Positions 23,808-64,000 of a stretch of DNA of 64,000 nt are shown in pieces; the stretch's first letter is position 1; each line of letters begins with the position of its first letter. The notes below the pieces were generated by a model. That model did no database searches and was not told the origin of the DNA. It was given only the letters and a program-made list of their open reading frames with translations. Both the position numbers and the translations under genes were made by a program. Source of the stretch: Proteromonas lacertae (Eukaryota; Sar; Bigyra; Opalinata; Proteromonadidae); assembly GCA_002245135.1 (NCBI GenBank), contig NGBS01000308.1, forward strand, positions 62,001-126,000. Reading direction: 5' to 3'.

Positions 23808-25394
23808 TTAATTTTCAACTTCTACTCTTCTTCTTTCTTCTCTTGATACTGGATTTTGAACTTTACAATCCAATAATAAATGATTATCAGGCTTCAAGCC
23901 AATACAAGCACGTAATAAATTAATAATACACTCTCTTTGTTTGAATAAAGCATTTACAACTGGACTATTCTTTGGAACTTCTGGTTGTTTAGTTAAATAA
24001 CTCAAAATTGATAAAATAGAATCGAATTTCTCAAATCCATTACTTCCTGGGTATTGAACGTGAATTCTTTCCATTAATTCTGTTAATAATACTAAATCCA
24101 ATATGATTGGAGCAGCTAATAATGAATCTTCACATGTATTATGCATAGAGATTGTATTCAATCCACCGCAGAATATTTCACTTGTATATTCATCAATAGC
24201 TCTTTTACTATCAGCAACATAGGGAATATATTTAATTACAACTAAATGATCTGGTTTTTCACCTTCTTTATATAATATTCTATTGCTATTAACCATATCA
24301 TCAATCACTGTTGATTTACTAATCTCTTTAGATCTGAATTGTTGTGGAGCTGATAAATTCTTACCATCGTTATTACCAAGATGGTTATAACTACATACAC
24401 TTACTGGTTTTATACCAGCAGATATTAAGAAATCGACTAATACAGATTTCATCTTAGTTTGACCACTCTTCAAATCATTTCCACCAATGAATACTTTCTT
24501 TTGTTCAGCTAATTCTTTTACACCTGGTACAAATGTATTTTGAGGACTTGCGTTAATATAACTGCAACCTTCTAATATGGAAGCTACTGCAAAGATTGTA
24601 CTAGCAGAAATTTCACTTTCACTTCTATCTATTGCTTTTAATAAATTTTCAGCTGTATCATTAATTCCTTCTTCTAATGCAGCATATCTTTCAGTATTAG
24701 CTGTCCATAATAATATCACTTTATCTAATTCATTATCTCTTTTGAAATTTCTAATATCTTCACGAATCTTTTCTAAGTGCTGTTTCTTATCATCACCTGG
24801 TAATATATTATCTGCTCTATCAGCTTGATTTGCAGCAATGAAATCTGGGTAATAGATTGATGGTAATGGACGAATATCTTTTAGATAAGGATATAATTTA
24901 TCTTGCAATGTTACATCAAATACTCTGGCTCTTCTCATACCATCACCTAAATTCATAGAGTTAATATCCCAACCACCAACTACTAAATCATTTGGATTGA
25001 CCATTGGTAAGATATTGTAGAAAGGAACATACACTTCTTCTTTACCACAATCACCTATTTTTACTGTAGAGGCTTGAGTTAAAGAACCAACATAATCAGC
25101 ATGTCTTGTACCATTCTTTGTTTCCCATGTTAATCCTTCTCTATTGGCAATAATACCACCAGTTAATGTTGTACCATTGTTACCACCCCAACCAATGAAC
25201 ATTACACCAGTTTTTGGAGCTCTTCTTTCTGTTTTGAAAGTGTATTTGGTTGAAACTGGGACGACCTTCAACTTTCCACGTTCATGTACTACTTGGGATT
25301 GATCGTAGTAATAATCAGCAACAATTTCGCTTTCGGTGTATTTAACATTTGGAGCATCTACTATGACAGGTTCACTGGAGAATTGAGTTGACAT
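23808..25394 (-). CDS. INO1: Inositol-3-phosphate synthase
   Basis: An intact intronless gene of 528 residues, typical for the family. The NAD-binding start [13 protein letters not shown], then [27 protein letters not shown], the [10 protein letters not shown] region, [11 protein letters not shown] and [14 protein letters not shown] are all textbook. It converts glucose 6-phosphate to inositol 3-phosphate with an internal NAD redox cycle, the first step of inositol synthesis, feeding phosphatidylinositol and phytate. Lack of introns in a gene this long is unusual beside its neighbours, though bacterial transfer is not suggested because the sequence is eukaryotic in type. Confidence 0.96.
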
Positions 25395-33700: not shown

Positions 33701-36186
33701 TACCGTTACATTTACAGTTTTTGATGAAATAAAGTTCATTCCATCTATTGGACCACCTTATTCATTATGTAGAATTGATCCAAATTATTTAGCCCAATGG
33801 TTTAACGTTTAATAACAAATCTTGTGAAATTAGTGGAAATTCGTTATATTCAACGGAAACTAATCACCACAATATTGACTATTTAATGACACTATCCAAT
33901 CCTCATTCATCCATCAATAAACAATTTCAATTAAAAATAGAAAATTGCAATAACAACGATAGTGAATTGATTGAGTTATATATTATAATAATTACAACAA
34001 TTACTATAAGAATGGATATAAATTGATGAATATTAGAATATTGGATTATAGAAGAGAAATAATTATGGAAATAAATGATTTTAAAGTTTATAATAATCAG
34101 AATTTCATTACTCAATATTATTGTATAAAAAGAGATGTTTATATCGTTGATCTTACTTTTGTTAATGATAGAAGGAATATGAATGGAATTGATTTAAAAG
34201 AAAGTAATTCAAATATAGAAATATATATTACAACATTCAATGGGTTTTTATTGTTTTATTTCAATTCAAAATATTCATTTGATATTCGTCCAAGGAGTTA
34301 TGATAATTTAAATGAAATGATAATAATTGAAGATGAAATGAATATGAATAGATTAATAATAAATTATAATTCAAGTATTTGGTATTCAGATAGATTCTAC
34401 GATGAGTGGTTAGAAACAAAATACAATTTTAAAAAGACATTTGTTGAGAAAAAAATATTCTCAATTCCATTTTATAAGTATAATAATGTTCAAAGATATT
34501 ATAAAACTGAGTTTAATATTGATGAGAATATGTTTTATATATCTTCAATAGTCCAATTATCTGTTTATTACAGAGAAGGAGTTATTATTTATTTAAATAA
34601 TAATAAAATATATATTGACAGCATTAACCAAAATCAATTTGGAGTAAATCATGAAGAATTATATAACATGTTTTATATCACATTTTCTATTTTGGAATTG
34701 AACTTATTAATGAATTATATTAATGTAGAAATTCACCAGAGTCAAGAGAATTATGTGAAAGATAATAATGAAGATTATTTCTCCTTATCTTTAGATATTA
34801 TCGATCAAAAATGTTTTGAATATAATAGTAAAATTCCTTTTATTCTTTCTAGTAATGTTGAAAGATATGATAATATTAATTTATATAAATTACTACAACC
34901 TTTGAAATCTGAAGATTTTGTTATTATTTTTAATCCAAAAATTAATTTCACTTTGGATATATTTTTACCTAATTATTATTACATCATTATTAATCGTTAT
35001 ACTGTGATAAGTAGTAATTTTAATGATATGTTAATAAATATACCAATATCATGGAGATTATATGGTAATAAATAACAGCAATAATGAAAATGATAATATC
35101 AATGAAGTTGTTTTAGATGAGCAGAATGATGTGGTTTTTGAAGGTAATTATGAATCAAAAATCTTCTATTTACCTCCACGAAGTTTATCATTTAATCACT
35201 TTAGAATAATTTTCACAAAAGTCGGTATAAATGATAATAAAGATGATGATGTTATACAACAATCAGTATTATCATTAAATTCAATTGTATTTGAAGGATG
35301 TAATATACAATATTGTATATATGAAGGACATGATCCTGTAGAAATTGGAGATACAATTCGATTGAATTGTCCATCAGATGAAACTGGTTATATTGAAAGA
35401 AAATGTTTGTTAAATTTTGAAACTAAAAAACCATATTGGAGCAATCCTTACAATCACTGTAAAGTAAATCCTCCAAAAATATTTGAAATAATTCCGTTAG
35501 AAAGTAACGGATATACTGGATATCCAATAGAAACACTGAATTTATTATGTTCTGGTAGAAATGTTGGATATAATGTAACGCCTAGTTTACCAGATGGAAT
35601 AAAGTTAATTGCCTCTCAAATCAACGGAATTAGTCAATATGAAATGAATATATTTTATAACGTAAGTTGTTGTAATGATGGTGGATGTTTAACAAAATCA
35701 TTTAGAATAAATGTGAAATTAGCTGCTTGTGCAAATGATAATATAACAAAATTACATGATAATAATAATAGAAATAATATTAGAATAAAGCTAAGAAAGT
35801 CATATAAAGATGATGGTGATGATAATGATGAGGACTACTGGCCAACTACAATGGTTGGTAATACGAGTGTAATAAACTGCAAATCTCCATTAATTGGTGT
35901 GAAAGAAAGATCGTGTTATTTTGATAGTTATCCAGTCTGGGGTAAAGTGATAGATAAGTGTAGAGAACCTGGTGATAAAGATTCTGATGTTGGAACTATT
36001 GTTGGTGTTATTATTGGTGTATTGGCTGTATTGGTGTTGATTGTTGGAGTGATCTGTTGTTTGAAGTCTAAACGGATTAAACGCCAATCATTAATGATAA
36101 ATAATAGTAAATCAAGAACATATTCTAATACAAGGCGGAATAACAACGGTGGTATTAATTTAAGTGAATTCGGTTTCATACAATAA
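30733..36186 (+). CDS. Large surface protein: PA14, He_PIG, CCP-like, TM
   Basis: Two early introns (30792-30825, 31053-31086), then one long exon. A signal peptide starts MFLSQLRLCVLVYLF. Recurrent phrases LPEGLSISNKNGAISG, NLPNFLEINPLTGVISG and GLYLDRQNGRISG are He_PIG (cadherin-like) repeats. A PA14-like carbohydrate-binding domain (FHGYILPQFYGNYEFRI) sits near residue 270. The C-terminal part has CCP/sushi-like Cys clusters and one membrane span (VGTIVGVIIGVLAVLVLIVG), with a basic tail. Coding is interrupted at about 33793, 33980 and 35072, each curable by a one- or two-base change; the net corrected length is 1794 residues. Likely a type I adhesion or recognition protein. Confidence 0.72.
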
Positions 36187-37408: not shown

Positions 37409-38652
37409 TTAAACCAAGTATGATCTTAGATTTTCACAAGCTGTACCATAATAACCAGTATAACATTCACATAATCCTGTTTCACCATTACATACACCTC
37501 TATTACTACAAGTTGATGGTTTTACAGCTGGATTTGTATTATCATTACCTTCTTCAATTCTTTTAACAACATCTGTACATTTATCACTAGGTTTTTCAAG
37601 AAGACTACTACCATATCTAACAGTAAATGTCTTATCTTCTGTTTTATCTCCATTTTTATATACTACAAACATATCATCAGAAACATCTTTTTCTTTATCT
37701 TCTTTACATTGATCAATATATTTCTGTACATCAGCATATTCTGTAGTTATTATCACAGTAAGAGTATTTTCAGATTTACATTTTACTAATACACTTGATT
37801 GTGTTAAAGGAGGTACAACCATTAATGATCTTCGAATATCTTCTTGAATATTAGCAGCTTTGGATAATTCTAATGTGGGATTAGCATCTTTACAAACACC
37901 ATCACTAAATGTTGCTTTTACTATTGGAGTAGTATATTTAACACCATCAAAATTAACAACATAATATGTTTCAAATGATTTAGCATCATTCTCAAATTTA
38001 ATATCATATGAGAATGTAAAATCATGTCTTTTATCAACAACAGGATCAATTCCAGTTGGACATATTCTAGAATCACACATAATACCGTCCCAACCTTTAT
38101 CACATTTACATTTATAAAACTTATTAAATTCCCAATTAGCTGCTTTAGCAGTTTCTTTATAATCATCACCTGCTGCTATACAAACACCATGACCACTACA
38201 ATAAGTGCCTTCTACAGCTGTTGGACAACTATGACGTTGACAAGCACTACCTTCATAACCTGGGAAACATTTACAATCACCTGTTGTTCGATCACATAAA
38301 CCTACATTGGAACATTCTGCATATCTATGTGCTCTTGTGGATGTTACTTCACCATCCATGTTTTCTGCTAATCCTGATTTTGGATACCATTCAGATTTTA
38401 CTTCAGATCCTGTAATTTGTCCATCATGATTCAAATCACCTCTAATTAGATCAATAAATGCTTCATCATATGGACAAGCTCCTATTCAAATTTATAAATT
38501 TATTATATACTCAATGAGCAATCTGCACCACCCCAACCTGGATAACATTCACATTTATCTAAAGTTCCACAACTACCATGTCCATTACAGAAGTTATTAC
38601 AAGCTAGACTAATCCCGAATATAAATAATAGTACCAAAACTTTAGTCTTCAT
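37409..38652 (-). CDS. Secreted EGF-repeat protein
   Basis: Two exons (intron 38482-38510) encode about 404 residues. A signal peptide ([17 protein letters not shown]) is followed at once by EGF modules: [11 protein letters not shown] with [12 protein letters not shown], later [16 protein letters not shown] and CSGHGVC, with a last one near the C-terminus ([22 protein letters not shown]). Between them is [12 protein letters not shown], a perfect calcium-loop spacing like an EF-hand or dockerin. The part between modules 3 and 4 (about 200 residues) is beta-rich without a known name. No anchor, so secreted. The same type of EGF module occurs in the gene at 15716. Confidence 0.82.
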
Positions 38653-38799
38653 TAAAACCAATAATTTAGATTGAATACGTTGGTGTGACTTTATATGGAC
38701 AAGGTCTATGTCATATTTACATCCCCCAATTTTTACGAAAATTAATTTTCAATAACCGATTTAATATCAGTTTTTTTAAATTCTTTGAAAATACAAACG

Positions 38800-41700
38800 A
38801 TGGATCATCGATTTGATAAGCCACAAGTCTGTATGATTATTCCTATTATTTATATCTACATTTTTATAGTAACTCCATACAGATCCCTTCGAAAGTTTAA
38901 AACCTTCTCACCATCTAACAAATTAAATAATCAAAATGTAATGAACAATAATGCTTCTATTGGTCCAGAGATAAATATTCCTTCGTATATTGAAGATGAA
39001 AAAACTACTAGAACGCCAAATGCTTCACCTAATCTATTCCCATCTCCACCTTTTACACCACCTCCTGATAATATTAGACCTAACAAAAATACATCAACAT
39101 TAGAAGAAAGCAAAAAATCATCTCCTGAACCAAATGAAAACTCTCACAAAGTATCAAAAGAAGTAGAAATTAGAAATGAAGAAAGTGTTATTATTAAACC
39201 TCCTCCACGTCCTGTAGTTAATACAATATCATTTATCTCAACACCCAAAATAGAGAATAAGAATAAGAAGTTATTAAGTGCATCTACAAATAACCAAATA
39301 TTAGAATTTTACACTCCTCCACCAAAAGAACAAATAAAACAAGAGAAAATCACATATACATCTGTAGAACCAATATTAATAAAAGAAGAATCATTACATA
39401 CAAATAGAGAATCAAGAGTAATAAAAAGAACAATTAATGAAAGTTATATCAATGAAGATAATGAAGAAATTAACCAAGAAAATATCAAGCCTAGTCAAGC
39501 CTCAAAATATCCATCTTATATTCCATTCAATTGGAAAACTTTTGTAATATTTGCAATTATTCAAATCATATCATTTCTTATTTATACTTTAATAATGTGG
39601 TTATTCGTTTGGTCATATATTAAGAATCATTATAGTATTAGAACAACAGAAAATGGTGAATTATCTGTTAATTCATTATCTATATATAAAGGTGATTTTG
39701 AAGTGAATGATATTTATACAAATGCAGTGGTGAATGAAATGAATAACGTAGAAAAATCCTCTAAGAATCATACATTTACATTGACAAAACAATTGATTGA
39801 GAATAATAAAATCAGCAACAAAAATACCACAATCTCAACAAAACAGGTAGAAAACAGAGAAATGAAGAAATCTTCAAAATCACTTCGTCATAATCCAAAA
39901 ATAGAAAGAAATCTAGCCGTTACATACGATACAACTCATCACTTATCTATAGATCCATCCACAGACGAATTATACATCTCTTCACACAGATTAACCAGTG
40001 ATGAGTTATTAATTGATGGAAATAGTTATTTTAAAGGAAATATTATAATGGGAGATCCATTGAAGAATACAACGATATTAGTGAATGGAAATATTGTTTT
40101 TAATACACATAATATAACTGTAAAAAATATAAATATTGAAAATGGATTAATTTCTAATTCAATGATAAAAGGAAATTCAATTATTTTTGATAGAAATACG
40201 AAATATAAAGTGCCATTTATCAATGATGAAGGAAAATTCGATTTTTTAAATGATTTTATCTATTCGAATGGTATTTTAACAACGAAATCCATTCAAAGTA
40301 AAGAAATAAATAATATTGAGAATATAAACAAATTAGAACCTTCTGTATTACATATCTATGATTCTATTAAAACTACAAATTATTTATTTGAAGAAGGGAA
40401 TAATAAATTTACACTGAATGATGGATTAATATCAGATAAGATTCAAACTTTATTCCTTAAAAGTAAAACTTCAGATCCAATCACATTTGAAAGTGATATA
40501 AGTGGAAATAATGTTAATAAAATATCCAAAATCAATAGAATAGAAGTAAATGAAATAAAAGGGAATGATGAAATAATTAAAGTAAAAAGTGATTTAGATT
40601 TTGGAACTAAAAGTATTAAAATGATTGAAAGAATTGATAATATGAAAGAAATGACAATTGGAACAATTAATATAATAGATTCGTTACATGTCAAATCAAT
40701 TGATAATGGTATTAGTTCTATTGATATGAATAGTGATGTAAATATGAAGAATAAAGATATTAATAATATAAAATCATTATATTCGAATACAATCAATGTA
40801 GAAACACTTCAAAGAGGTAATAGTGATAATACTATTAAAGTGTCAAGCAAATTGAATTTACAGAATACATATGATATTGTAAATGTAAGGGAAATACAAT
40901 CAAATAATATAAAAGTAAATAAAATAGAGAGTAAAGACGGTTCTACTCCATTACAAATAAGTAGTGATGTTAATATAAACAGAATAACAGCCGGAATAAT
41001 CAATACAAATACACTTAAAGCAGAATATAAAATAGATGTTAATACTGTATTTGATATGAATAATAATGATATAAATAATGTAAAATTGTTAAACTCTAAA
41101 GAAACAAATATTAATGAATTACATGTTAAATCTATTGATAATAATGCTAATGCTATTGATATAAACAGTGAAATGAATGTAAAAAAAATAATGAAAGTGA
41201 ATACTATTGAAAGTCTTAATCCCTCTGATTCTATTGAAATAAAGAGTAATATAAAAACAGATCATATATTTTCAGCAAGTAGTATTAAGGTTGAAAGTAT
41301 TGAAGGAGGTGCAAGTGGAAATATTAAAATATCTTCTAATGTTGATATTGGCACTTATAAACTGTCAGTTAGTAATTTGAATATGGGTTCAATTGCTTTA
41401 AGTAATTCAGTTTCTACACCTTTAATTACAGGACCATATTCTGATATTAAAATTAATAAAGATTTGAATTTACAGTCAAAATCTATGAGTAATATAAAGC
41501 AAATAACATCTTCAACACTTAATATAGCAAATCTTCAAAGTAGTAGTGGTTCTGGAGGTAATATTAAAGTGAATAGTGATTTAGATATGTTAAATAATGA
41601 TATTAGTGGGATAAAAGAAATGAGTAGTGGAATAATTAATGTTGGCATAATTCAAAGTAGTGGAATAATTACAGTGAAAGGTAATTTGGATTTATTAAGT

Positions 41701-42114
41701 ATTAATGATATTACGAATGTGAATAATATGAAATCAAATGAGTTGTTTGGTAGTACATTGAGTATTGACAATTTAAAAACATTTACAGGAAGTTCAATCA
41801 ACATATTGAGTGGTATAAATATGAATTCAATGGATATAAGTGGAATAAGCACAATTAGTAGTGGAACAATCAATGTTGGAACTATAATGAGTAGTAGTGG
41901 AAGTACAGGAACAATAATGATATATAGTAATTTAGATATGTTAGGAAATAGTGTTTTACATGTTAATAAACTACAAATTCCAACAGTAATATCTCCAGTT
42001 TCATCTACTTGTGATAAAATAGGAGAAATATATTTTGATTTAACCAATGATAAGATTTATATTTGTAATGGAAGTAAATTTTTGGAATATTCTATTACAC
42101 CTTCATCTCCTTAG
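38800..42114 (+). CDS. Type II membrane protein with repeat ectodomain (A)
   Basis: Two exons (intron 38831-38869) give 1091 residues. The N-terminal 230 are cytosolic in character: Pro, Ser, Lys and Glu, no signal peptide. A single hydrophobic span sits at about residues 235-260, after which the chain reads SVNSLSIYKG, matching LSLNSLRVYKG at the same place in the giant gene next door. The rest is imperfect repeats of about 38 residues built on patterns like SSGTINVGTI and IKVNSDLDM, probably a beta-solenoid. The last 40 residues (CDKIGEIYFD ... IYICNG ... TPSSP) share an ending with the giant gene. It is the most diverged, so likely an older member. Convergent with gene B, 122 bp apart. Confidence 0.8.
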   Translation: MDHRFDKPQVCMIIPIIYIYIFIVTPYRSLRKFKTFSPSNKLNNQNVMNNNASIGPEINIPSYIEDEKTTRTPNASPNLFPSPPFTPPPDNIRPNKNTSTLEESKKSSPEPNENSHKVSKEVEIRNEESVIIKPPPRPVVNTISFISTPKIENKNKKLLSASTNNQILEFYTPPPKEQIKQEKITYTSVEPILIKEESLHTNRESRVIKRTINESYINEDNEEINQENIKPSQASKYPSYIPFNWKTFVIFAIIQIISFLIYTLIMWLFVWSYIKNHYSIRTTENGELSVNSLSIYKGDFEVNDIYTNAVVNEMNNVEKSSKNHTFTLTKQLIENNKISNKNTTISTKQVENREMKKSSKSLRHNPKIERNLAVTYDTTHHLSIDPSTDELYISSHRLTSDELLIDGNSYFKGNIIMGDPLKNTTILVNGNIVFNTHNITVKNINIENGLISNSMIKGNSIIFDRNTKYKVPFINDEGKFDFLNDFIYSNGILTTKSIQSKEINNIENINKLEPSVLHIYDSIKTTNYLFEEGNNKFTLNDGLISDKIQTLFLKSKTSDPITFESDISGNNVNKISKINRIEVNEIKGNDEIIKVKSDLDFGTKSIKMIERIDNMKEMTIGTINIIDSLHVKSIDNGISSIDMNSDVNMKNKDINNIKSLYSNTINVETLQRGNSDNTIKVSSKLNLQNTYDIVNVREIQSNNIKVNKIESKDGSTPLQISSDVNINRITAGIINTNTLKAEYKIDVNTVFDMNNNDINNVKLLNSKETNINELHVKSIDNNANAIDINSEMNVKKIMKVNTIESLNPSDSIEIKSNIKTDHIFSASSIKVESIEGGASGNIKISSNVDIGTYKLSVSNLNMGSIALSNSVSTPLITGPYSDIKINKDLNLQSKSMSNIKQITSSTLNIANLQSSSGSGGNIKVNSDLDMLNNDISGIKEMSSGIINVGIIQSSGIITVKGNLDLLSINDITNVNNMKSNELFGSTLSIDNLKTFTGSSINILSGINMNSMDISGISTISSGTINVGTIMSSSGSTGTIMIYSNLDMLGNSVLHVNKLQIPTVISPVSSTCDKIGEIYFDLTNDKIYICNGSKFLEYSITPSSP

Positions 42115-42236: not shown

Positions 42237-45200
42237 TTATGGTGAAGATGATAATTTTTGTAATTGTACTTTCATCCATTGATTGTTTAAACAAATAACA
42301 ATTCCATTATTACCATCTAAATAAATAGCACCTTCATTATCTATATTACAATCTGATGGTTTATTTGGTAATTTAAGCATTGTACCAATAGTGACTGTTC
42401 CTGATGATACAGTTCCAGCTTTAATCTTTCCATCACTTCCTATATTTATTTCTTTTTCTTTAAGTGTTGAACTTCCTAATGTTAATGTTCCTGCTGATAT
42501 TTTACCATCATTTCCTAAGTTCAGATTCTTGTCACTTAATGTTGTTCCACCTAATGTTAATGTTCCTGCTGATATCTTTCCATCATTTCCTATATTTATT
42601 TCTTTTTCTTTAAGTGTTGAACTTCCTAATGTTAATGTTCCTGCTGTTATTTTACCATCACTTTTTAAATCTAATGATTTATCACTTAGTATAGTGTTTG
42701 CCAGAGTTAATTTTCCAGCTTTAATCTCTCCATCATTTCCTATATTTATTTCTTTTTCTTTAAGTGTTGAACTTCCTAATGTTAATGTTCCTGCTGATAT
42801 CTTTCCATCATTTCCTATATTTATTTCTTTTTCTTTAAGTGTTGAACTTCCTAATGTTAATGTTCCTGCTGTTATTTTACCATCACTTTTTAAATCTAAT
42901 GATTTATCACTTAGTATAGTGTTTGCCAGAGTTAATTTTCCAGCTTTAATCTCTCCATCATTTCCTATATTTATTTCTTTTTCTTTAAGTGTTGAACTTC
43001 CTAATGTTAATGTTCCTGCTGTTATTTTACCATCACTTTTTAAATCTAATGATTTATCACTTAGTATAGTGTTTGCCAGAGTTAATTTTCCAGCTTTAAT
43101 CTCTCCATCATTTCCTATATTTATTTCTTTTTCTTTTAGTGTTGAACTTCCTAATGTTAATGTTCCTGCTGTTATTTTACCATCACTTTTTAAATCTAAT
43201 GATTTATCACTTAGTATAGTGTTTGCCAGAGTTAATTTTCCAGCTTTAATCTCTCCATCACTTCCTATATTTATTTCTTTTTCTTTTAGTGTTGAACTTC
43301 CTAATGTTAATGTTCCTGCTGATATCTTTCCATCATTTCCTATATTTATTTCTTTTTTCTTTAAGTGTTGAACTTCCTAATGTTAATGTTCCTGCTGTTA
43401 TTTTACCATCACTTTTTAAATCTAATGATTTATCACTTAGTATAGTGTTTGCCAGAGTTAATTTTCCAGCTTTAATCTCTCCATCACTTCCTATATTTAT
43501 TTCTTTTTCTTTTAGTGTTGAACTTCCTAATGTTAATGTTCCTATATTTATAATACTGTTTGAATTCATATTAAAATCATTATGAACATTAATTGGACTA
43601 TTTGCAACATTAGGATATTTACTATTTATATCACCTACATATAAAAATTTACTCAATTTCATATCTCTATCAACAATAACATCTGATATAGCACTTATTG
43701 TATTACATATAATTTTGTTAGCAGTTACACTATTTGTTGAAGCATCAACATTTGAATAAAATTGTATAGCAGTAGTATCTTTTCCTTCTAATGATTTAAT
43801 CTTGATTATTTTATTACCATTCATATCAAGATCTCCCATTCTAATTATTTTTTTACCATTCATATCAAGATCTTCCATTCCAATTATTTTATGATTATTC
43901 ATATTAATATCACTACTTACAACAATTTCTTTATTATCAGAGGATTGTATTTCTTTCAATGCTAAAGGACTATGAATATAAATTGGACTAGCAGCTACAC
44001 TTTCTATAGTTCCTACATTTAACTTATTGTTTATAGTAACTGTTGATGCTGTAATTATATTTATATGCATATTATCAATATTCTTTATACCTTTTATATT
44101 TAGAAAATCTAAATCATTGTGAATTTGTATATCTGCTGCAACATGATTACTTTTTAAATGATCAACAGTGATTGTGCCAGTTATTATAATACCATTATTA
44201 CTCATACTCAATGTTCCAGCACTTATTATTCCACCTTTCAAATCTAATAATTTATCACTTAATGTTGTTCCACTATTTCCCAATTTTATTGTTCCAGATG
44301 TTATTATTCCATCAGATTTTAAATCTAATAATTTGTTACTTAATTTCGTTCCATCATTTCCTATTTCGATTGTACCTGTACTGATCTTTCCATCATTACC
44401 CATATTCAATGTTCCAGCACTGATTGTGCCAGTGAATATTTGACCACCACCACCCATTTTCAATGTACCAGCACTTAACTCTTTTATATTATAGATATTA
44501 CCATTAGACATATCTATATTATTCAGTATCTTCATATCACTACCACTTAATACTTTTATGTTATTCACACTTAATGTATTTCCAGATAATTCATTAGCTT
44601 CAAACTGTTTTATTTTTATCAGACTGTATTTATCTTGAAAATTCATATCACTGTTGATCATTATTGAACCACTAGCACCACCACCATTATTTTCGATTGT
44701 ACCTATATTCAATGTTCCAGAACTCATTCTTCCATTTGCACCTAAATTCAATGTTCCAGCACTTATTATTCCACCTTTCAAATCTAATAATTTATCATTT
44801 AGAGTTGTCTTTCCTGATCCTAATTCGATTGAACCTGTATTTATATACCCTGCATTACCCATATTCACAGTTCCGGCACTGATTGTTCCACTCGCTCCTA
44901 GATTCAATGTTCCAGCTGTTATTATTCCATCAGATTTTAAATCTAATAATTTGTTACTTAATTTCGTTCCATCATTTCCTATTTCGATTGTACCTGTACT
45001 GATCTTTCCATCATTACCCATATTCAATGTTCCAGCACTGATTGTGCCAGTGAATATTTGACCACCACCACCCATTTTCAATGTACCAGCACTTAACTCT
45101 TTTATATTATAGATATTACCATTAGACATATCTATATTATTCAGAATCTTCATATCACTACCACTTAATACTTTTATGTTATTCACACTTAATGTATTTC

Positions 45201-48200
45201 CACTTAAATTTTCACCTCCTAGTGTTAAAGCATTCAATACACTATATGTTCCTTGTAAATTTAAATCACTATTGATCTTTATATCATTTCCAGCACCATT
45301 ACTACTTTGAATTGTACCAATATTTATTGTTCCACTACTAAGCTCTTTTATTCCACTTATATCTTTGCTTGTTAGCTTCATATTACCATCTATTGTTATT
45401 GTTCCACTACTACCTTTCATTTTATCGATGTTTAATATACCACCACTTATCTCATTCACATTTAATAAATTATATGTTCCTTGTAAATTTAAATCACTAT
45501 TGATCTTTATATCATTTCCAGCACCATTACTACTTTGAATTGTACCAATATTTATTGTTCCACTACTAAGCTCTTTTATTCCACTTATATCTTTGCTTGT
45601 TAACTTCATATTACCATCTATTGTTATTGTTCCACTACTACCTTTCATTTTATCGATGTTTAATATACCACCACTTATCTCATTCACATTTAATAAATTA
45701 TATGTTCCTTGTAAATTTAAATCACTATTGATCTTTATATCATTTCCAGCACCATTACTACTTTGAATTGTACCAATATTTATTGTTCCACTACTAAGCT
45801 CTTTTATTCCACTTATATCTTTATTATCTACTTTTATATTATTCAATATATTGATTGTACTACCACTTAATACTTTTATGTTATTCACACTTAATGTATT
45901 TCCACTTAAATTTTCACCTCCTAGTGTTAAAGCATTCAATACACTATATGTTCCTTGTAAATTTAAATCACTATTGATCTTTATATCATTTCCAGCACCA
46001 TTACTACTTTGAATTGTACCAATATTTATTGTTCCACTACTAAGCTCTTTTATTCCACTTATATCTTTGCTTGTTAACTTCATATTACCATCTATTGTTA
46101 TTGTTCCACTACTACCTTTCATTTTATCGATGTTTAATATACCACCACTTATCTCATTCACATTTAATAAATTATATGTTCCTTGTAAATTTAAATCACT
46201 ATTGATCTTTATATCATTTCCAGCACCATTACTACTTTGAATTGTACCAATATTTATTGTTCCACTACTAAGCTCTTTTATTCCACTTATATCTTTGCTT
46301 GTTAGCTTCATATTACCATCTATTGTTATTGTTCCACTACTACCTTTCATTTTATCGATGTTTAATATACCACCACTTATCTCATTCACATTTAATAAAT
46401 TATATGTTCCTTGTAAATTTAAATCACTATTGATCTTTATATCATTTCCAGCACCATTACTACTTTGAATTGTACCAATATTTATTGTTCCACTACTAAG
46501 CTCTTTTATTCCACTTATATCTTTGCTTGTTAGCTTCATATTACCATCTATTGTTATTGTTCCACTACTACCTTTCATTTTATCGATGTTTAATATACCA
46601 CCACTTATCTCATTCACATTTAATAAATTATATGTTCCTTGTAAATTTAAATCACTATTGATCTTTATATCATTTCCAGCACCATTACTACTTTGAATTG
46701 TACCAATATTTATTGTTCCACTACTAAGCTCTTTTATTCCACTTATATCTTTGCTTGTTAACTTCATATTACCATCTATTGTTATTGTTCCACTACTACC
46801 TTTCATTTTATCGATGTTTAATATACCACCACTTATCTCATTCACATTTAATAAATTATATGTTCCTTGTAAATTTAAATCACTATTGATCTTTATATCA
46901 TTTCCAGCACCATTACTACTTTGAATTGTACCAATATTTATTGTTCCACTACTAAGCTCTTTTATTCCACTTATATCTTTATTATCTACTTTTATATTAT
47001 TCAATATATTGATTGTACTACCACTTAATACTTTTATGTTATTCACACTTAATGTATTTCCACTTAAATTTTCACCTCCTAGTGTTAAAGCATTCAATAC
47101 ACTATATGTTCCTTGTAAATTTAAATCACTATTGATCTTTATATCATTTCCAGCACCATTACTACTTTGAATTGTACCAATATTTATTGTTCCACTACTA
47201 AGCTCTTTTATTCCACTTATATCTTTGCTTGTTAACTTCATATTACCATCTATTGTTATTGTTCCACTACTACCTTTCATTTTATCGATGTTTAATATAC
47301 CACCACTTATCTCATTCACATTTAATAAATTATATGTTCCTTGTAAATTTAAATCACTATTGATCTTTATATCATTTCCAGCACCATTACTACTTTGAAT
47401 TGTACCAATATTTATTGTTCCACTACTAAGCTCTTTTATTCCACTTATATCTTTGCTTGTTAACTTCATATTACCATCTATTGTTATTGTTCCACTACTA
47501 CCTTTCATTTTATCGATGTTTAATATACCACCACTTATCTCATTCACATTTAATAAATTATATGTTCCTTGTAAATTTAAATCACTATTGATCTTTATAT
47601 CATTTCCAGCACCATTACTACTTTGAATTGTACCAATATTTATTGTTCCACTACTAAGCTCTTTTATTCCACTTATATCTTTGCTTGTTAGCTTCATATT
47701 ACCATCTATTGTTATTGTTCCACTACTACCTTTCATTTTATCGATGTTTAATATACCACCACTTATCTCATTCACATTTAATAAATTATATGTTCCTTGT
47801 AAATTTAAATCACTATTGATCTTTATATCATTTCCAGCACCATTACTACTTTGAATTGTACCAATATTTATTGTTCCACTACTAAGCTCTTTTATTCCAC
47901 TTATATCTTTGCTTGTTAACTTCATATTACCATCTATTGTTATTGTTCCACTACTACCTTTCATTTTATCGATGTTTAATATACCACCACTTATCTCATT
48001 CACATTTAATAAATTATATGTTCCTTGTAAATTTAAATCACTATTGATCTTTATATCATTTCCAGCACCATTACTACTTTGAATTGTACCAATATTTATT
48101 GTTCCACTACTAAGCTCTTTTATTCCACTTATATCTTTATTATCTACTTTTATATTATTCAATATATTGATTGTACTACCACTTAATACTTTTATGTTAT

Positions 48201-51200
48201 TCACACTTAATGTATTTCCACTTAAATTTTCACCTCCTAGTGTTAAAGCATTCAATACACTATATGTTCCTTGTAAATTTAAATCACTATTGATCTTTAT
48301 ATCATTTCCAGCACCATTACTACTTTGAATTGTACCAATATTTATTGTTCCACTACTAAGCTCTTTTATTCCACTTATATCTTTGCTTGTTAACTTCATA
48401 TTACCATCTATTGTTATTGTTCCACTACTACCTTTCATTTTATCGATGTTTAATATACCACCACTTATCTCATTCACATTTAATAAATTATATGTTCCTT
48501 GTAAATTTAAATCACTATTGATCTTTATATCATTTCCAGCACCATTACTACTTTGAATTGTACCAATATTTATTGTTCCACTACTAAGCTCTTTTATTCC
48601 ACTTATATCTTTGCTTGTTAACTTCATATTACCATCTATTGTTATTGTTCCACTACTACCTTTCATTTTATCGATGTTTAATATACCACCACTTATCTCA
48701 TTCACATTTAATAAATTATATGTTCCTTGTAAATTTAAATCACTATTGATCTTTATATCATTTCCAGCACCATTACTACTTTGAATTGTACCAATATTTA
48801 TTGTTCCACTACTAAGCTCTTTTATTCCACTTATATCTTTGCTTGTTAACTTCATATTACCATCTATTGTTATTGTTCCACTACTACCTTTCATTTTATC
48901 GATGTTTAATATACCACCACTTATCTCATTCACATTTAATAAATTATATGTTCCTTGTAAATTTAAATCACTATTGATCTTTATATCATTTCCAGCACCA
49001 TTACTACTTTGAATTGTACCAATATTTATTGTTCCACTACTAAGCTCTTTTATTCCACTTATATCTTTATTATCTACTTTTATATTATTCAATATATTGA
49101 TTGTACTACCACTTAATACTTTTATGTTATTCACACTCAATGTATTTCCACTTAAATTTTCACCTCCTAGTGTTAAAGCATTCAATACACTATATGTTCC
49201 TTGCAAATTTAAATCACTATTGATCTTTATATCATTTCCAGCACCATTACTACTTTGAATTGTACCAATATTTATTGTTCCACTACTAAGCTCTTTTATT
49301 CCACTTATATCTTTATTATCTACTTTTATATTATTCAATATATTGATTGTACTACCACTTAATACTTTTATGTTATTCACACTCAATGTATTTCCACTTA
49401 AATTTTCACCTCCTAGTGTTAAAGCATTCAATACACTATATGTTCCTTGTAAATTTAAATCACTATTGATCTTTATATCATTTCCAGCACCATTACTACT
49501 TTGAATTGTACCAATATTTATTGTTCCACTACTAAGCTCTTTTATTCCACTTATATCTTTATTATCTACTTTTATATTATTCAATATATTGATTGTACTA
49601 CCACTTAATACTTTTATGTTATTCACACTCAATGTATTTCCACTTAAATTTTCACCTCCTAGTGTTAAAGCATTCAATACACTATATGTTCCTTGTAAAT
49701 TTAAATCACTATTGATCTTTATATCATTTCCAGCACCATTACTACTTTGAATTGTACCAATATTTATTGTTCCACTACTAAGCTCTTTTATTCCACTTAT
49801 ATCTTTGCTTGTTAACTTCATATTACCATCTATTGTTATTGTTCCACTACTACCTTTCATTTTATCGATGTTTAATATACCACCACTTATCTCATTCACA
49901 TTTAATAAATTATATGTTCCTTGTAAATTTAAATCACTATTGATCTTTATATCATTTCCAGCACCATTACTACTTTGAATTGTACCAATATTTATTGTTC
50001 CACTACTAAGCTCTTTTATTCCACTTATATCTTTATTATCTACTTTTATATTATTCAATATATTGATTGTACTACCACTTAATACTTTTATGTTATTCAC
50101 ACTCAATGTATTTCCACTTAAATTTTCACCTCCTAGTGTTAAAGCATTCAATACACTATATGTTCCTTGCAAATTTAAATCACTATTGATCTTTATATCA
50201 TTTCCAGCACCATTACTACTTTGAATTGTACCAATATTTATTGTTCCACTACTAAGCTCTTTTATTCCACTTATATCTTTATTATCTACTTTTATATTAT
50301 TCAATATATTGATTGTACTACCACTTAATACTTTTATGTTATTCACACTCAATGTATTTCCACTTAAATTTTCACCTCCTAGTGTTAAAGCATTCAATAC
50401 ACTATATGTTCCTTGTAAATTTAAATCACTATTGATCTTTATATCATTTCCAGCACCATTACTACTTTGAATTGTACCAATATTTATTGTTCCACTACTA
50501 AGCTCTTTTATTCCACTTATATCTTTGCTTGTTAACTTCATATTACCATCTATTGTTATTGTTCCACTACTACCTTTCATTTTATCGATGTTTAATATAC
50601 CACCACTTATCTCATTCACATTTAATAAATTATATGTTCCTTGTAAATTTAAATCACTATTGATCTTTATATCATTTCCAGCACCATTACTACTTTGAAT
50701 TGTACCAATATTTATTGTTCCACTACTAAGCTCTTTTATTCCACTTATATCTTTGCTTGTTAACTTCATATTACCATCTATTGTTATTGTTCCACTACTA
50801 CCTTTCATTTTATCGATGTTTAATATACCACCACTTATCTCATTCACATTTAATAAATTATATGTTCCTTGTAAATTTAAATCACTATTGATCTTTATAT
50901 CATTTCCAGCACCATTACTACTTTGAATTGTACCAATATTTATTGTTCCACTACTAAGCTCTTTTATTCCACTTATATCTTTGCTTGTTAGCTTCATATT
51001 ACCATCTATTGTTATTGTTCCACTACTACCTTTCATTTTATCGATGTTTAATATACCACCACTTATCTCATTCACATTTAATAAATTATATGTTCCTTGT
51101 AAATTTAAATCACTATTGATCTTTATATCATTTCCAGCACCATTACTACTTTGAATTGTACCAATATTTATTGTTCCACTACTAAGCTCTTTTATTCCAC

Positions 51201-54200
51201 TTATATCTTTGCTTGTTAGCTTCATATTACCATCTATTGTTATTGTTCCACTACTACCTTTCATTTTATCGATGTTTAATATACCACCACTTATCTCATT
51301 CACATTTAATAAATTATATGTTCCTTGTAAATTTAAATCACTATTGATCTTTATATCATTTCCAGCACCATTACTACTTTGAATTGTACCAATATTTATT
51401 GTTCCACTACTAAGCTCTTTTATTCCACTTATATCTTTGCTTGTTAACTTCATATTACCATCTATTGTTATTGTTCCACTACTACCTTTCATTTTATCGA
51501 TGTTTAATATACCACCACTTATCTCATTCACATTTAATAAATTATATGTTCCTTGTAAATTTAAATCACTATTGATCTTTATATCATTTCCAGCACCATT
51601 ACTACTTTGAATTGTACCAATATTTATTGTTCCACTACTAAGCTCTTTTATTCCACTTATATCTTTATTATCTACTTTTATATTATTCAATATATTGATT
51701 GTACTACCACTTAATACTTTTATGTTATTCACACTCAATGTATTTCCACTTAAATTTTCACCTCCTAGTGTTAAAGCATTCAATACACTATATGTTCCTT
51801 GCAAATTTAAATCACTATTGATCTTTATATCATTTCCAGCACCATTACTACTTTGAATTGTACCAATATTTATTGTTCCACTACTAAGCTCTTTTATTCC
51901 ACTTATATCTTTATTATCTACTTTTATATTATTCAATATATTGATTGTACTACCACTTAATACCTGTATGTTATTTATTTTCAATGTTGATCCTTCTAAT
52001 ATATTAGCAGCAAATGATTTCAAATTCAGAATACTGTAAGTTCCTTGAAAATCCAAATCACTTGATATATTTATTGTACCACTATTACCATCCATTTCGT
52101 TAATAACAATTTTACCACTACTTAGTATATCGTTACCATTCATATTGATATTATTCTTTATAGATATTACACTATCTGCTGCATTACTTTCAATTTGTGG
52201 TAATTTTACTGAATGTATTATATTGATTGTTCCTGCTGTTGCTTCTTTTACTTTATCAATATTATGACTATCTTGTAGATCTAAATTGCTATTTATCATT
52301 ATTGTTGAAGTTGGACTATTTAATGTACCAACATTGATTTTTCCTGAGCTTAATTCTTTTACATCTTTTATATCATTTTGTTTCATATCTAAATCACTTT
52401 TAATAGTAATTGGTTGATTGGCTGTTGGATTATCAACTGATGTAACATGTAACCAATTACCAATGTTAATTGTACCTGAACTTAATTCATTAACATTTGA
52501 AACATCTTTACTATTCATATTTATATCACTTTCAATTGAAATTTCATCATTTCCATTACTTATGGTTTTAATATTTAGAGTTAAACCACTTATTTCACTT
52601 ACATCAGATATTTTATTACCTTTCATACTTATATCACTGTGTATATTTATTGAATTACCACTTAATACCTTCAAATTGTTAATATTCAATGTAGTTCCAG
52701 ATAAATCTTTAGCTTTAAAGTTCTTTATATTAACAATATCATGATCCAACATATCTAAATTACTGTTTATCATAATAGTTCCAATTGAACCAATATTACT
52801 TTGAATTGTACCAACATTCATTGTAGAACCATTCATTTCATTTATTCCAACTATATTTTTACTTTTCATATCAACATCACTAATTATTGAAATTGTTCCA
52901 CTTATTCCACTACTACTCTCAATTGTTCCAATATTAATTGTTCCACTACTCATTTTATTTATTCCTTTTATATCTTTACCATTTAAATTCATATTATCAC
53001 TTATAACTATATCAGTTCCACCATTACTCACTTCAGGAACGTGTAATACTTTGCCAATATTAATCGTACTTGCATCTAATACATTCACACCAATTATATC
53101 ATTATTATTATTCATATTAATATCAACATTTATAGTGACTGTTCCACCATTTTTGTCATTTATTGATTGTAAATTATAGATGGATGTTCCATCTATTTCT
53201 AAGTTATTATCTACAGATATTTTCTTTACTTTTAATTCATTGTTTTCATATTTGAATGTATTATCAAATGAGACTTTTCCATCTTCATTTAAATAAGCAA
53301 CATTGTTCTTATTTTCTATTGGATAATGTAATCCGTTGGTTGTGTCTTTATCATAAGTGATATTGGGATTAATTACAGTTGGCTTGACAATGCTTGAGTT
53401 TAAGATGGATGTACCATTTGCAAATGTCATATTACCATATATATAACTTTTATCTATATTAACTGTATTTTGAACATTTCCACTAGTTAAGGTTAAATTT
53501 CCTATTCCATCTGTAGTTTTTATTGTTGTATTTTCTAATGTAATATTACTGATTCTGGTACTATTAGATATTGTCACATTACAAATTTTTGTTTCATAAA
53601 AAATATCCGTTACATTTAATTGACCAACCGTTATATTAGAAATTAAGTGTTTGTTTATATCAGGATTGTATTTATATTGAAATGTTGCATTAGTTAAATC
53701 GATAGTATTGTTTACTACTAAATTTGGTGTTTTTATCTCTCCATTACCTATTTTTATCTCATCATCTGTTGTATTTCCTACTGTAACATCATGAGCATTG
53801 ATATTACCATTATTTATAGTTACTACTTTATCTGAAGCTGCTCCAATGGATAAATTACCACCAATATTAGTATTTTCATTTACAACCATGTTATCAGATG
53901 TCATCTTCTTTGTATGCAAATAAACATTATTGTTATTATCAATTCCAATATGATAATTAGGCGATTTTTTTGTTTCCTTACTATTTGATAAATGACGGAT
54001 ATTGGATGATTTTGAAGATGATTTATGTTGTTTAGATGACAATGATGATGATAATGACGATGTATTCTTTACCTCATAATCTCTAAGATTATAAGCTTCG
54101 TTTTTACTAGATGATTTAATAGATTCACTGAATATTGGAATTGTACCACTATCATTGGAATCATTTTCATAAAATTGAGTTTCAGAACCTTTATAGACTC

Positions 54201-54656
54201 TTAAACTGTTTAAACTAAGCATTGAAGCAGATATGGTAATGTTGTAATAGTATCTCATATAACTGTAAACAAATGCCCACACGATGAATGTGTATAAAAG
54301 ACAAATAAATAGGACGATAGCAGCTACTGATTGTAAAAAACAAGAATTATACTAAATTTTAAGCACTCTTTACAATGATGTTTCTTATAAGATAAATCTA
54401 CAGGTTTTAAAAACTGTCTATCCATCTTTTCTACAGCTTCTGAATATGGAACTACAGGAGTATAGTCTTTATCTATAAACTCAGGAGCAACACTATGAAC
54501 AACATTGGGTCTTACTGATAAATATCTGCCATGAGAATTATGTTCTTTGACAGTTTTGATAGAATTAGGAACTAGTCATAATTAAAAAATTAATATACCT
54601 CTAGCTATTGGAGGGGGAGCTTTTGGAGAAGGATAAGCCCATTTTTCTGAAGACAT
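42237..54656 (-). CDS. Giant type II membrane repeat protein (B), ~4121 aa
   Basis: Three exons (introns 54572-54598 and 54327-54352). The cytosolic N-terminus is Pro-rich and ends LKPVDLSYKKHHCK, then a membrane span (about residues 94-115) and a huge ectodomain. Residues of about 880-3136 are 29 near-identical units of two kinds, 76 and 82 residues, sharing the half KDISGIKELSSGTINIG. Next come AGTLKMGG/AGTLNLG repeats and a last array of 25-residue repeats (AGTLTLGSSTLKEKEINIG). The end shares a domain with gene A (GAIYLDG ... ICLNNQW ... SSSP). One surplus T at 43353-43358 (six T where sister repeats have five) breaks the frame 370 codons before the end. Without it the model is exactly 4122 codons. 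Surface fibre or adhesin is inferred. Confidence 0.82.
42430..43545 (-). repeat. 75-nt tandem repeats in the C-terminal part of B
   Basis: About fifteen units of 75 bp, in two alternating kinds (25 residues each), encoding AGTLTLGSSTLKEKEINIG... and AGKLTLANTILSDKSLDLK.... Some steps are 150 bp (for instance marker words at 42901, 43051 and 43201), one is 225. Copies differ by only a few bases. Confidence 0.88.
44160..45185 (-). repeat. AGTLNMG-type repeats with a ~300-bp duplication
   Basis: Short Gly/Thr-rich units encoding SAGTLNMGNDGKISTGTIEIG and similar. Two long blocks (about 44320-44580 and 44925-45190) are almost identical to each other, so a chunk was duplicated here more recently than the units themselves. 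Confidence 0.8.
45190..51965 (-). repeat. 29-unit tandem array, periods 228 and 246 bp
   Basis: Two unit types, X (246 bp, begins SVLNALTLGGEN) and Y (228 bp, begins NLLNVNEISGG), share an identical 120-bp half. From N- to C-terminus the order is X, 5Y, 2X, Y, 3X, 3Y, X, 4Y, X, 4Y, X, 2Y, X. Differences between copies are a few silent bases (for example TTAGC/TTAAC, TGT/TGC, CTT/CTC). Confidence 0.92.
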
Positions 54657-57348: not shown

Positions 57349-60300
57349 TTAATAAAAGTTAATTTCACAATTATTCAATATTGTCTTAACTTCATCAACT
57401 GTAGTATTAATTGGATTATTTACTAAACTCAGTTTCTTCAGTTTAGGCAATAAAGGCAATGATATTTTCAATACATCAACACTTTCATCAGTCAAACCAT
57501 TATCTAATAAAAAAGAAATAAAAACTATAAAATATACTATTCAAATATAATTCCTCCAAATTATTGGTATAACGGAAAGAATCTACAAAGAATTGTACTC
57601 CTATTGGTCCCATTGCCGTTGAACCAATCGCTAATATCTTCAAGCCTGCCAAGCCTTTCAAACCATCACACAATAATCTCACTCCTTTTTCACATATTTT
57701 ATTCCCCCAAATCGATAATCTCGTCAATTCTGTAGTGACTTTCAATCCTTCATTCAACCACTTTATAGATTCCAGCATTTAATTGTGTTCTACTTATTCC
57801 TAAATCTTTTAGTTTTGGTAAATACTTCAATCCATTACTTAACCACATCATCCCTGTATCTCCTATATTATTACCATCTAAAGATAGCTTTTGCATATCA
57901 GGACAATATCTTAAGCTATTACCTAAAAATTTAATACCTTCTTCATTGATTTGATTATTTCCAATCTCAAAATCTTGCAATTTATTTAACATTTGTAGCC
58001 TATCGCATAATCTTTCAAATCCAATATCACTTATCTTGTTTCCATATAAATATAACACTTCTAATTCCTTTGTAAATTGTAAACCTTCACTTAAGAACTT
58101 TAAACCTGCATTTCCTATGAGATTTTCATATAATGTCAATTTCTTTAATTTCTTCATGGATCTTAGTGATTTAACGAAGAATTTCATTCCATTATCTGCG
58201 ATGTGATTTGTACCTAATTCTAAGTCCTCTAAATCATGTAACGCACTTAATCCTAAACATAAATAATTCATTCCTATATCACCAATTTCGTTACCCCATA
58301 AATGTAACGTATTTAATTTTGGTAATGTAATCAGTGCATCACTTAGCCATTTTGCTCCATCATCTCCAATATGATTTCCATCTAAAGTTAACACTCTTAA
58401 ATTACTCATTACACTCATAAATATACTTATATACTGAATTCCAACATCACCAATATTGTTCCCTATATATAAAAACATAAATAAAATAGTAAAACGGATA
58501 GAAAAGTGAATATAAAAGTGAATATATATACTTGATATTTGAAGATCAATCAAATTCGGCAAACACTTCAAACCTGTACATAGTAACTTTAATCCATTAT
58601 CACCTATCTTATTACCATATAAATACAATATTTCCAATTCATTTGTATATTGTAAACCATCACTTAAAAATCTCATTCCCTCTTCTTTAATCTGATTTCC
58701 ATCTAATGATAGTTTATTCAAATGAATTAAATGTTTCATGGCGTTAGATAAATACTGAACTCCTGCATCTGTTATATCATTATCGCCAATTTCTAAGTCT
58801 TTTAAATTCTGCAAATTGATTAATCCTTCTGACAATAACTTTACACCAGAATCTCCTAAATTATTCTCAAATAACCACAAAGTGTCAATGGATTTAGTAT
58901 ACATAAAACCATCGCATATTACTTTCATTCCTGTTGCTTGTAATTGATTTCCTCCAATTGTTAGACGTAATAATTTGCTTGAATTTTTCATACACTTATC
59001 AAATGAGATTATATCATTATCTCCAATATTGTTATTTCCTAATTCCAATTCTTTTAATTGATTTAATATACTGATTTTGTCTAATAATGTGTTTAAACCA
59101 TATTCATTTATTGATACATCAAATACTCGTAGAATTTCTAATCGATTAACTAAATTGTATGTTATTACATAAAAAACTAATTCCTTCATTTCCTATAGGA
59201 TTTGAACCAATTCCAAGCTCAATTAGATTCGGTATAAATTGTAAAGAATTAGATAGATAAGTCATTCCAATAGATGTTATATGATTTACACCAACATTTA
59301 AAACACTTTAAATGTCTCATATATGACATATTATCACATAAATACTTCATTCCTTCATTACCTATATTGTTATTATATAAATATAATGTCTCTAAATCAC
59401 CTAAGAATTTCATTGATGATGAAAATATCTTCATTCCTTTATAAGTCAAATTATTCTGTGCTAAATTCAAATCTCTTAATCGATATAATCTTATAATTAT
59501 ATTACTCAAATATTCTATTCCTTCATCACCAATAGCGTTATTATTTAAATATAAAACCACTACATTTGGGATATACTTTAATAATGAACTTATTTCCTTG
59601 CAATTCTTGATTGGATATCACCATATTTTGACAGTCTATTGTACCTAATGAAGTTCCTTTCATTACTTTGTAATGAATCATATCCACAGGATTATTCAAT
59701 TGATTTTTTCAATATATCCGCTAAACTAATTTCCATATTCAAACATACATTAATTAATAACTTATATAATTTTGGTGAATAAGTATTGTTAAATCCATGT
59801 ATTATTTGATACAATAATACTACATCAGTTAATACATTTTGTACAACTTTGTCAGTTACAATTTCTTCGTTACTCATTGCATTGATTTCTTCGTATGTGT
59901 AACGGACGACTGGTAAAGGATCTATTTGTGCATTGTCTCTAATTCGCTGTAATTCGCTGATAATTTCATCAATATTTAATCTTTCTTTTTGATCTATTAC
60001 TAGTAATTTCTTGAGTAATTGATTGAGTTGATCACTGAACACACTTTCTAAGTCTGGATAATTAGCTGATGTGATTGATAACTGAACATCTAATAAAGAT
60101 TTACCATTGAATGTGTTTTTTCCACTTAGAATGTAGTACATTACACAACCATAACTCCAAATATCAGTTTTTATATCAATTTCTTCATTCTTTAACATTT
60201 CGGGTGACATGTACTGATATGTTGAAATTGCGATTGAAGGAAGTGAACTTGGTGCCAATAAATCATTCTTACAGTAATCACTTACTATTGCATTACCTTC

Positions 60301-62909: not shown

Positions 62910-64000
62910 ATGAGTGATTCATCTTTCGACGATGGATATGATGATGTAAACCTTCCAGGTATTCCTATTCACCAATTTTCGCAAAGTCCACATAAAAATA
63001 AAGTCAGTCCATCAAAATATATCAGACCACCAGAAGCTCCTTCTAATATATATAAATCTACTCAAAGAGGTATAATAACATGTATATAATTAAATAGTAC
63101 CTGCAACTATGAAGAACTTAAATGAACATAGAATTGGACCTAATAAGGTGTACGTAACAGCTCCACCTCCAATAAGGAAAAGAACTCCAATACAGGAAAT
63201 AATAGATCCAATGAATCCCGCTGGAGGTGGAGTGTCTGTTGATAAATCATCTTTAGACTTAATGAAAGATTATCTAAAACCAAGAGATTTGTCATACAAA
63301 AGACATTACTGTAAATACTATTCTTTGATGAGTATAATTTATTAACCTATATTTATAGCTCTCTTTTGTTTAATTGTATTTGCTATTTATTCTCTTATCA
63401 TTTTCTTTGTATATAAATCGTATATGAAATCTCATTACAAAATCTCCATTGATTCAAACACGCTTAATCTTAATGCATTTAAAATTGAAAAGTTCAATGG
63501 AATATATACTCAGTTCTATAATGAGTCAAACACTCCAATTGCTAAAGAGAAGACTAAAGTGAAAACTAAAATCGTTAATCATAACATTAGAAGTGATAGA
63601 AAATTAGCAGCTTCTACAATAGCTCCTACAACTTCAATACCTTCAACAGCTGCACCACCACCACCAACAACTACTACTACAGCTGCACCAACCACTTCTT
63701 CACCAACCACTTCTTCACCATCCACTGCTAATCCAACTGCAACTTCTAATCCAACAACAGCATCTCCTACATCAACTACAATTCCAACATCTTCAGATCC
63801 AACAACATCTGTACCAGCAACAACAACAACGACAATTCCAACTAACGTAATAGATGATGAACCATTTCCAAATATTCCAGAAGATGAATATAATTACAAA
63901 AACAGCAAAACAGTCTCAGATTCTAAAGCAATAATTGACTCACAGAATCATTTATTCCTTACTACAAGTGGATTGAAGAGTAATAATTTAGAAATTAATC
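62910..64000 (+). CDS. Type II membrane protein, family member C, 5' part
   Basis: Three exons so far (introns 63070-63097 and 63332-63358); the gene runs off the window. The cytosolic part is Pro-rich and ends LKPRDLSYKRHYCK, nearly the same as LKPVDLSYKKHHCK in giant gene B, and in both an intron in phase 1 falls about five codons later, just before the membrane span (about residues 133-155). Outside the membrane comes SNTLNLNAFKIEKFNG, aligning with the other two members, then a mucin-like Thr/Pro/Ser stalk at about 63620-63840. The repeat ectodomain presumably follows beyond 64000. Confidence 0.8.

Follow-up and report, generated by a model that had tools for sequence, protein, structure and literature searches.

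What kind of protein is specified by a gene that consists largely of nested, near-identical repeats, and does this gene stand alone? The question is raised by a locus on the minus strand (54656 to 42237) of a 64,000-nucleotide stretch of the Proteromonas lacertae contig NGBS01000308.1 (here C147:62001-126000, in a 50.2-Mb assembly of 1,181 contigs), which we call the window. A sequence-only reading had described one giant type II surface protein with a cytosolic head, a single membrane span and a repeat ectodomain. We see the same gene, of ~4,100 residues and with the same three parts, so that the account was right on the gene itself, but it overlooked a gene family, a frame shift and differences in length between copies. 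We consider it fairly probable that the locus encodes members of a lineage-specific family of single-pass type II plasma-membrane surface-fibre proteins of expandable length, and a tethered surface fibre or coat is the most economical reading.

The giant gene, its family and its second copy

The giant gene starts with an ATG at 54656, and its product sums to about 107 + 3,649 + 366 residues. Two small introns of 27 nt (54598-54572) and 26 nt (54352-54327), whose splice sites were picked by eye without a transcript, precede the main open frame (54282-43333), which spans 3,649 codons; across 50 single-base shuffles of the locus, read in three frames of the minus strand, no open frame exceeded 102. 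The frame is not continuous. It shifts near 43333-43371, in one 75-bp unit with a different run length; beyond this point the next frame takes over and stays open through what is left of the 75-bp array to the C-terminus (375 residues from 43364). No shift occurs at this point in contig C547, which carries a second copy of the locus and has a 2,474-residue frame from the main array to the same C-terminus; it has several frame breaks of its own elsewhere in the main array. We take the break in the window to be a sequencing or allelic run-length difference and have left it unmended. The parts of the gene and its relatives in the window are as follows.

54353..54656, minus: exons 1 and 2 with intron 1 (54598-54572); predicted cytosolic, proline-containing head of ~92 residues, splice sites by eye
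54265..54326, minus: predicted single membrane span (signal anchor) opening exon 3, which follows intron 2 (54352-54327); ends approximate
53470..53934, minus: predicted membrane-proximal ectodomain common to the family, with one cysteine conserved in five of six aligned members (alignment A9); ends approximate
51895..53175, minus: diverged units, from the unit profile
45103..51894, minus: main array, 29 units of 228/246 bp with two basic units each
43544..45102, minus: AGTL-type repeats and further diverged units
42398..43543, minus: 75-bp (25-residue) array from Tandem Repeats Finder, containing the frame shift at ~43333-43371
42237..42377, minus: C-terminal cap with two cysteines, then the stop
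38785..42114, plus: convergent paralogue, a 1,109-residue open frame of the same plan with 15 units (E<0.01) and a cap; probable intron near the start, by eye
62910..64000, plus: third family gene, start only; it continues on C147 beyond the window, and C148 has a similar copy

The giant is one of at least seven family members, mostly clustered, of which two others lie inside the window. The members counted are the 1,109-residue gene at 38785, the giant, the gene starting at 62910, three genes on C149 and one on C1012. Genome searches, whose counts are lower bounds, located relatives on C147, C148, C149, C488, C547 and C1012 only: at least 127 matches with the 1,109-residue paralogue (42 of 69 candidates scored), at least 17 with another member (53 of 53) and at least 13 with the C-terminal part (38 of 38). 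Overlapping or second-copy contigs were merged in the member count (C149 1-5892 equals C148 at 99.5%, C488 matches C148 at ~97% and the C147 end matches C148 at 95.8%). Each of six aligned C-terminal caps contains two cysteines, with a G-x-[IM]-Y core in four of them. We further note that N-x-S/T sequons are depleted in the ectodomain of the paralogue at 38785-42114 (5, versus 18-25 at four control spacings), and that the giant outside its main array holds 20 such sequons versus 23-39 at control spacings.

C547 matches the window locus at 98.5% over 6.9 kb on the left, and the two copies differ in their arrays. Recognised main units number 29 in each, in a different order of short and long units, and the true number in C547 exceeds 29 because this contig stops partway through the array and unrecognised units occupy two of its intervals (671 and 432 bp). 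Units of 75 bp number 13 in the window versus 44 in C547, and the stop lies 3,109 bp from the last main unit in the former and 4,737 bp from it in the latter. Both C147 and C547 end within repeat arrays. Because the arrays differ between the two contigs, the copy number is that of one allele or is limited by assembly; the array length is thus either truly allelic or assembly-limited, and the exact protein size is not to be trusted. Collapse or expansion of the array by assembly, which the sequence-only reading had named as the outcome that would undo it, was not demonstrated, but the contigs do disagree in 75-bp copy number and in unit order. Between the two fibre genes C547 also holds ~2.4 kb (~6925-9339) almost absent from the window, with a 507-residue open frame that looks transposase-like by eye.

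Repeat pattern and membrane topology

The three nested arrays described earlier (29 units of 228/246 bp, an AGTL segment and a 75-bp array) are present as stated, but the basic unit is half of the 228/246-bp unit, with a length of ~36-44 residues. Tandem Repeats Finder reports 28.6 copies with 91% matches for the main array, whose 29 recognised units comprise 19 of the short, 228-bp kind and 10 of the long type (nine complete 246-bp intervals). Each 228-bp unit joins a 40-residue and a 36-residue unit; in the 246-bp variant the second half has 37 residues and a short linker is added. The 19 short units represent two DNA sequences, one synonymous base apart, and the nine complete long units represent three DNA sequences with two synonymous changes. 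Since the unit DNA is almost identical, the main array has probably been homogenised recently.

Of the structural evidence, we give most weight to the hydrophobic/polar pattern seen across 67 non-redundant units. A unit profile, started from eleven hand-picked units and iterated on the giant locus, finds a 37-position unit 76 times in the main frame (E<0.01). The giant and related genes supplied 184 aligned matches, 88 of them distinct; a minimum length of 25 residues and a mutual identity below 75% left 67 units. Columns 3, 8, 10, 13, 21, 23, 27, 29, 34 and 37 are hydrophobic in 94-100% of these units and the other columns in 0-31%. This pattern points to the buried alternate residues of beta strands, perhaps arranged as two short coils per unit, and supports a beta-rich repeat ectodomain.

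The head of the giant is ~92 residues long with 11 prolines in the first 90. A single strongly hydrophobic span follows near residues 92-113 (19-residue Kyte-Doolittle mean 2.69); among the 3,756 residues that precede the frame break no other 19-residue mean exceeds 1.6, and by the Kyte-Doolittle measure only, an N-terminal hydrophobic stretch is absent. The basic stretch YKKHHCKECLK directly precedes the span, so the N-terminus is predicted to lie inside. Paralogues that reach that far show the same plan of span and membrane-proximal domain, and the span and the following stretch (HYxISIDxxxLSLNSL-like) are similar among them. The type II anchor proposed earlier thus stands as a sequence-based prediction: the one span and the charge flanking it agree with a single-pass, N-in topology and one internal signal anchor.

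Structure prediction, searches and rival explanations

AlphaFold2, applied to the near-perfect array, returned a regular solenoid as the best of five models, with a predicted local distance difference test score (pLDDT) of 77. Several results weigh against a regular beta fibre, however. The other four models are poor (57.4, 54.0, 37.4 and 33.4), the diverged paralogue segment with its cap reaches only 47.4 at best, and AlphaFold2 has a reported bias towards solenoids when repeats are perfect (PMC11795689). Because a single model yields the solenoid and this bias is reported, the regular solenoid anticipated by the sequence-only reading is only weakly borne out. The 67 units were chosen by a profile that already preferred the pattern, begun from hand-picked units, and the outer pattern columns are filled in only 25-60 of the 67 rows, so the percentages given above are somewhat flattering. 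Foldseek gave no match at E≤0.001 against the PDB (best 0.21) or, as counted by the tool, against viral models, where the best are proteins of Tetraselmis virus 1 (E 1.0e-3) and Heterosigma akashiwo virus 01 (E 1.6e-3). We therefore regard the solenoid and rigid-fibre claims as plausible but unproven.

Relatives are a further difficulty. At the sensitivity used, none was found outside the source genome among 5.8 billion proteins, IMG/VR and GTDB genomes: phmmer with the paralogue gave none at E≤1e-3 among 7,992 candidates scored, and the six-row family profile A9 none at E≤0.01 among 7,996. The protein search requires shared 5-residue words and compatible length, so missing relatives do not prove absence. 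Pattern stretches occur in viral contigs (4 with the paralogue, 177 with the array and 1 with the membrane-proximal region; none confirmed by tblastn) and in genome contigs (76 with the array; none confirmed). PDB sequence searches returned nothing with the paralogue at E≤10 and nothing with the cap profile. The unit profile did hit a surface protein of biofilms, 7dm0, at E 0.00055 through two pieces of 15 residues, as well as neurexin at E 3.9; we judged both to be chance. Pfam matches on the repeats have the look of low-complexity chance: PTSIIB_sorb, together with seven families on the C-terminal part, two of which, DUF5386 and DUF1968, pass their cut-offs. Within the collection searched, literature searches listed no paper on a protist type II membrane protein with a beta-solenoid, nor on a giant-virus fibre with one.

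The alternative that survives best, which we hold to be possible but doubtful, is a homotrimer of the virus or phage tail-fibre kind, with a triple beta-helix on a membrane stalk and the C-terminal cap as trimer clamp. Phage and virus tail fibres and tailspikes (Mtd, beta-helical stalks) build long chains from short beta repeats and carry a small terminal domain, and their repeats resemble the giant-family units by eye. In one of six members the cap matches the phage tropism-determinant domain Mtd_N over 18 residues (E 0.0036) at 17.6 bits, below the curated cut-off of 26.3, and a PHROG scan of the caps gives two virion structural families, each again in one member of six (E 0.014 and 0.12). 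The giant's own cap, by contrast, has no Pfam match even at E≤10; S74/ICA is absent from the main frame, C-terminal part and paralogue at E≤0.01, and Peptidase_S74/ICA from the six caps at E≤1 (Pfam). The 1,109-residue paralogue has no PHROG match at E≤1. PHROG 20068 (function unknown) does match the 75-bp array at E 8.6e-14, as low complexity. Among eukaryotes, MYRF is known as a membrane protein whose trimeric beta-helical stalk is of the tailspike type (PMC8326128, PMC3742443). The monomer model of the diverged segment fails as that of a trimer would, but a monomer solenoid was modelled for the array.

That the anchor is cleaved, leaving the repeats to form a secreted or shed extracellular matrix layer instead of a tethered fibre, would fit a topology predicted from sequence alone; we think it unlikely, as the similarity of the span and following stretch among paralogues seems to go beyond the need of a throw-away signal. 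Slightly less likely again is that the repeat locus is decaying or was inflated by assembly and yields no functional giant protein. The frame shift in the window, the several breaks in C547, the disagreement in array length and the contig ends inside arrays are what such a locus might show, but the breaks differ in place between the copies and C547 reads through the site of the window's break, which is the pattern of sequencing error, and both copies of the paralogue stay open for all 1,109 codons. A disordered or mucin-like low-complexity coat, which the solenoid bias of AlphaFold2 and the low-complexity composition would allow, is highly improbable in view of the hydrophobic spacing in 67 diverged units and the scarcity of prolines (16 in 3,649 residues of the main frame).

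We thus return to the tethered surface fibre. In this model the signal anchor would insert the giant N-in, the short cytosolic head would face the cell cortex, and the ectodomain would form a long beta-strand fibre of one 36-44-residue unit, whose distal, C-terminal end the two-cysteine cap would close. Packed side by side, many copies may produce a surface coat or somatic hairs, and unequal exchange may alter repeat number and with it array length, so that fibre length could vary between alleles and paralogues. An ectodomain of 3,900 residues, with ~18.5 residues to each 0.48-nm coil as in general solenoid geometry, would make a fibre estimated at ~100 nm, or longer if trimeric; for a two-coil solenoid we estimate a rise of about 1 nm for each basic unit. 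As to whether this fibre or coat is rigid and extracellular, as the sequence-only reading supposed, and as to its oligomeric state and biological role, we infer and do not observe.

If expressed, the giant would be an unusually long beta-repeat fibre on a eukaryotic type II anchor, in a lineage with poorly known surface proteins. The finding is more interesting as a family than as a single gene, and it introduces no new principle. The family members are direct candidates for the somatic hairs or glycocalyx of an opalinate-type stramenopile and a possible natural case of allelic fibre-length variation. As diverged paralogues adjoin the perfect array, the locus is also a natural test of how far structure predictors can be trusted on near-perfect repeats. 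A more far-reaching proposal, to which we give a slim chance, is an EGF-independent class of stramenopile surface-hair proteins. These would be type II fibres, akin to those of viruses and perhaps trimeric, that are held across the membrane by the cortical cytoskeleton, are tuned in length by repeat number and possibly serve as opalinate somatic-hair material. The body hairs of Proteromonas are named somatonemes, a name that our literature search did not show. Opalinata are described, in PMC6492006, as having cilia without tubular hairs and microtubules underlying the cortical ridges.

Neighbourhood, lineage and known systems

The window has a guanine-cytosine content of 22-32% (2-kb steps), and introns of about 26-40 nt interrupt those of its genes inspected by eye. 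An EGF_2 gene of the stramenopile mastigoneme type (37409-38652, minus) adjoins the paralogue and has a signal-like N-terminus at 38652 and three EGF_2 stretches. With 118 of 405 candidates scored, its relatives account for at least 185 matches genome-wide, and some of these relatives sit in open frames of 3,279-6,770 residues; because the EGF family is thus spread over the genome, this neighbour is no evidence for a mastigoneme role, and the link was dropped. Surface-type frames lie near the fibre cluster at 31017-36186, with a He_PIG (putative Ig) match in the first and a C-terminal hydrophobic stretch, seen by eye, in the last. Leucine-rich-repeat-like frames, again by eye, flank the locus on both sides (57500-59560 and 9488-11105), and 4911-7856 holds tandem near-duplicate kinase-like frames, apparently split by short introns, with 29-bp imperfect repeats.

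The inositol-phosphate synthase gene (23808-25394) groups with Blastocystis (P0005) and four other rows in a FastTree tree of 121 rows (the window gene and 120 listed hits), at a support of 94 that falls under the 95 mark. Its highest identity among the hits listed is to P0065, outside the Blastocystis group. The tree thus points with moderate confidence to a stramenopile near Opalinata, and for these two reasons the opalinate assignment drawn from it is only suggestive.

Among known systems, bacterial beta-helix adhesins such as filamentous haemagglutinin and HxuA differ from the giant family in anchoring and secretion route, and the paralogue has no PDB sequence match at E≤10. The mastigoneme proteins PnMas1-3 of Phytophthora are likewise candidate surface-hair components, from the same supergroup, but they are described (PMC12223298) as proteins with a signal peptide and 3-4 EGF-like domains that lack a membrane span, whereas the giant family has an internal span and no EGF match (Pfam scan of main frame, C-terminal part and paralogue at E≤0.01). 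MYRF, a metazoan membrane-bound transcription factor, is N-in and single-pass. It is a membrane protein using a phage-type beta-helical architecture, as the giant may be, but its beta-helix and ICA sit between the DNA-binding domain and the span (PMC8326128), while the giant repeats would lie on the other side of the span, in a family for which the Pfam scans gave no ICA/S74 match. Tail fibres and tailspikes are set apart in that the giant family is membrane-anchored and eukaryotic, with introns, no match above a curated cut-off and no confirmed viral contig; what they appear to share with it is an architecture of short beta repeats with a small cap, together with the weak Mtd_N, virion structural PHROG and viral fold matches.
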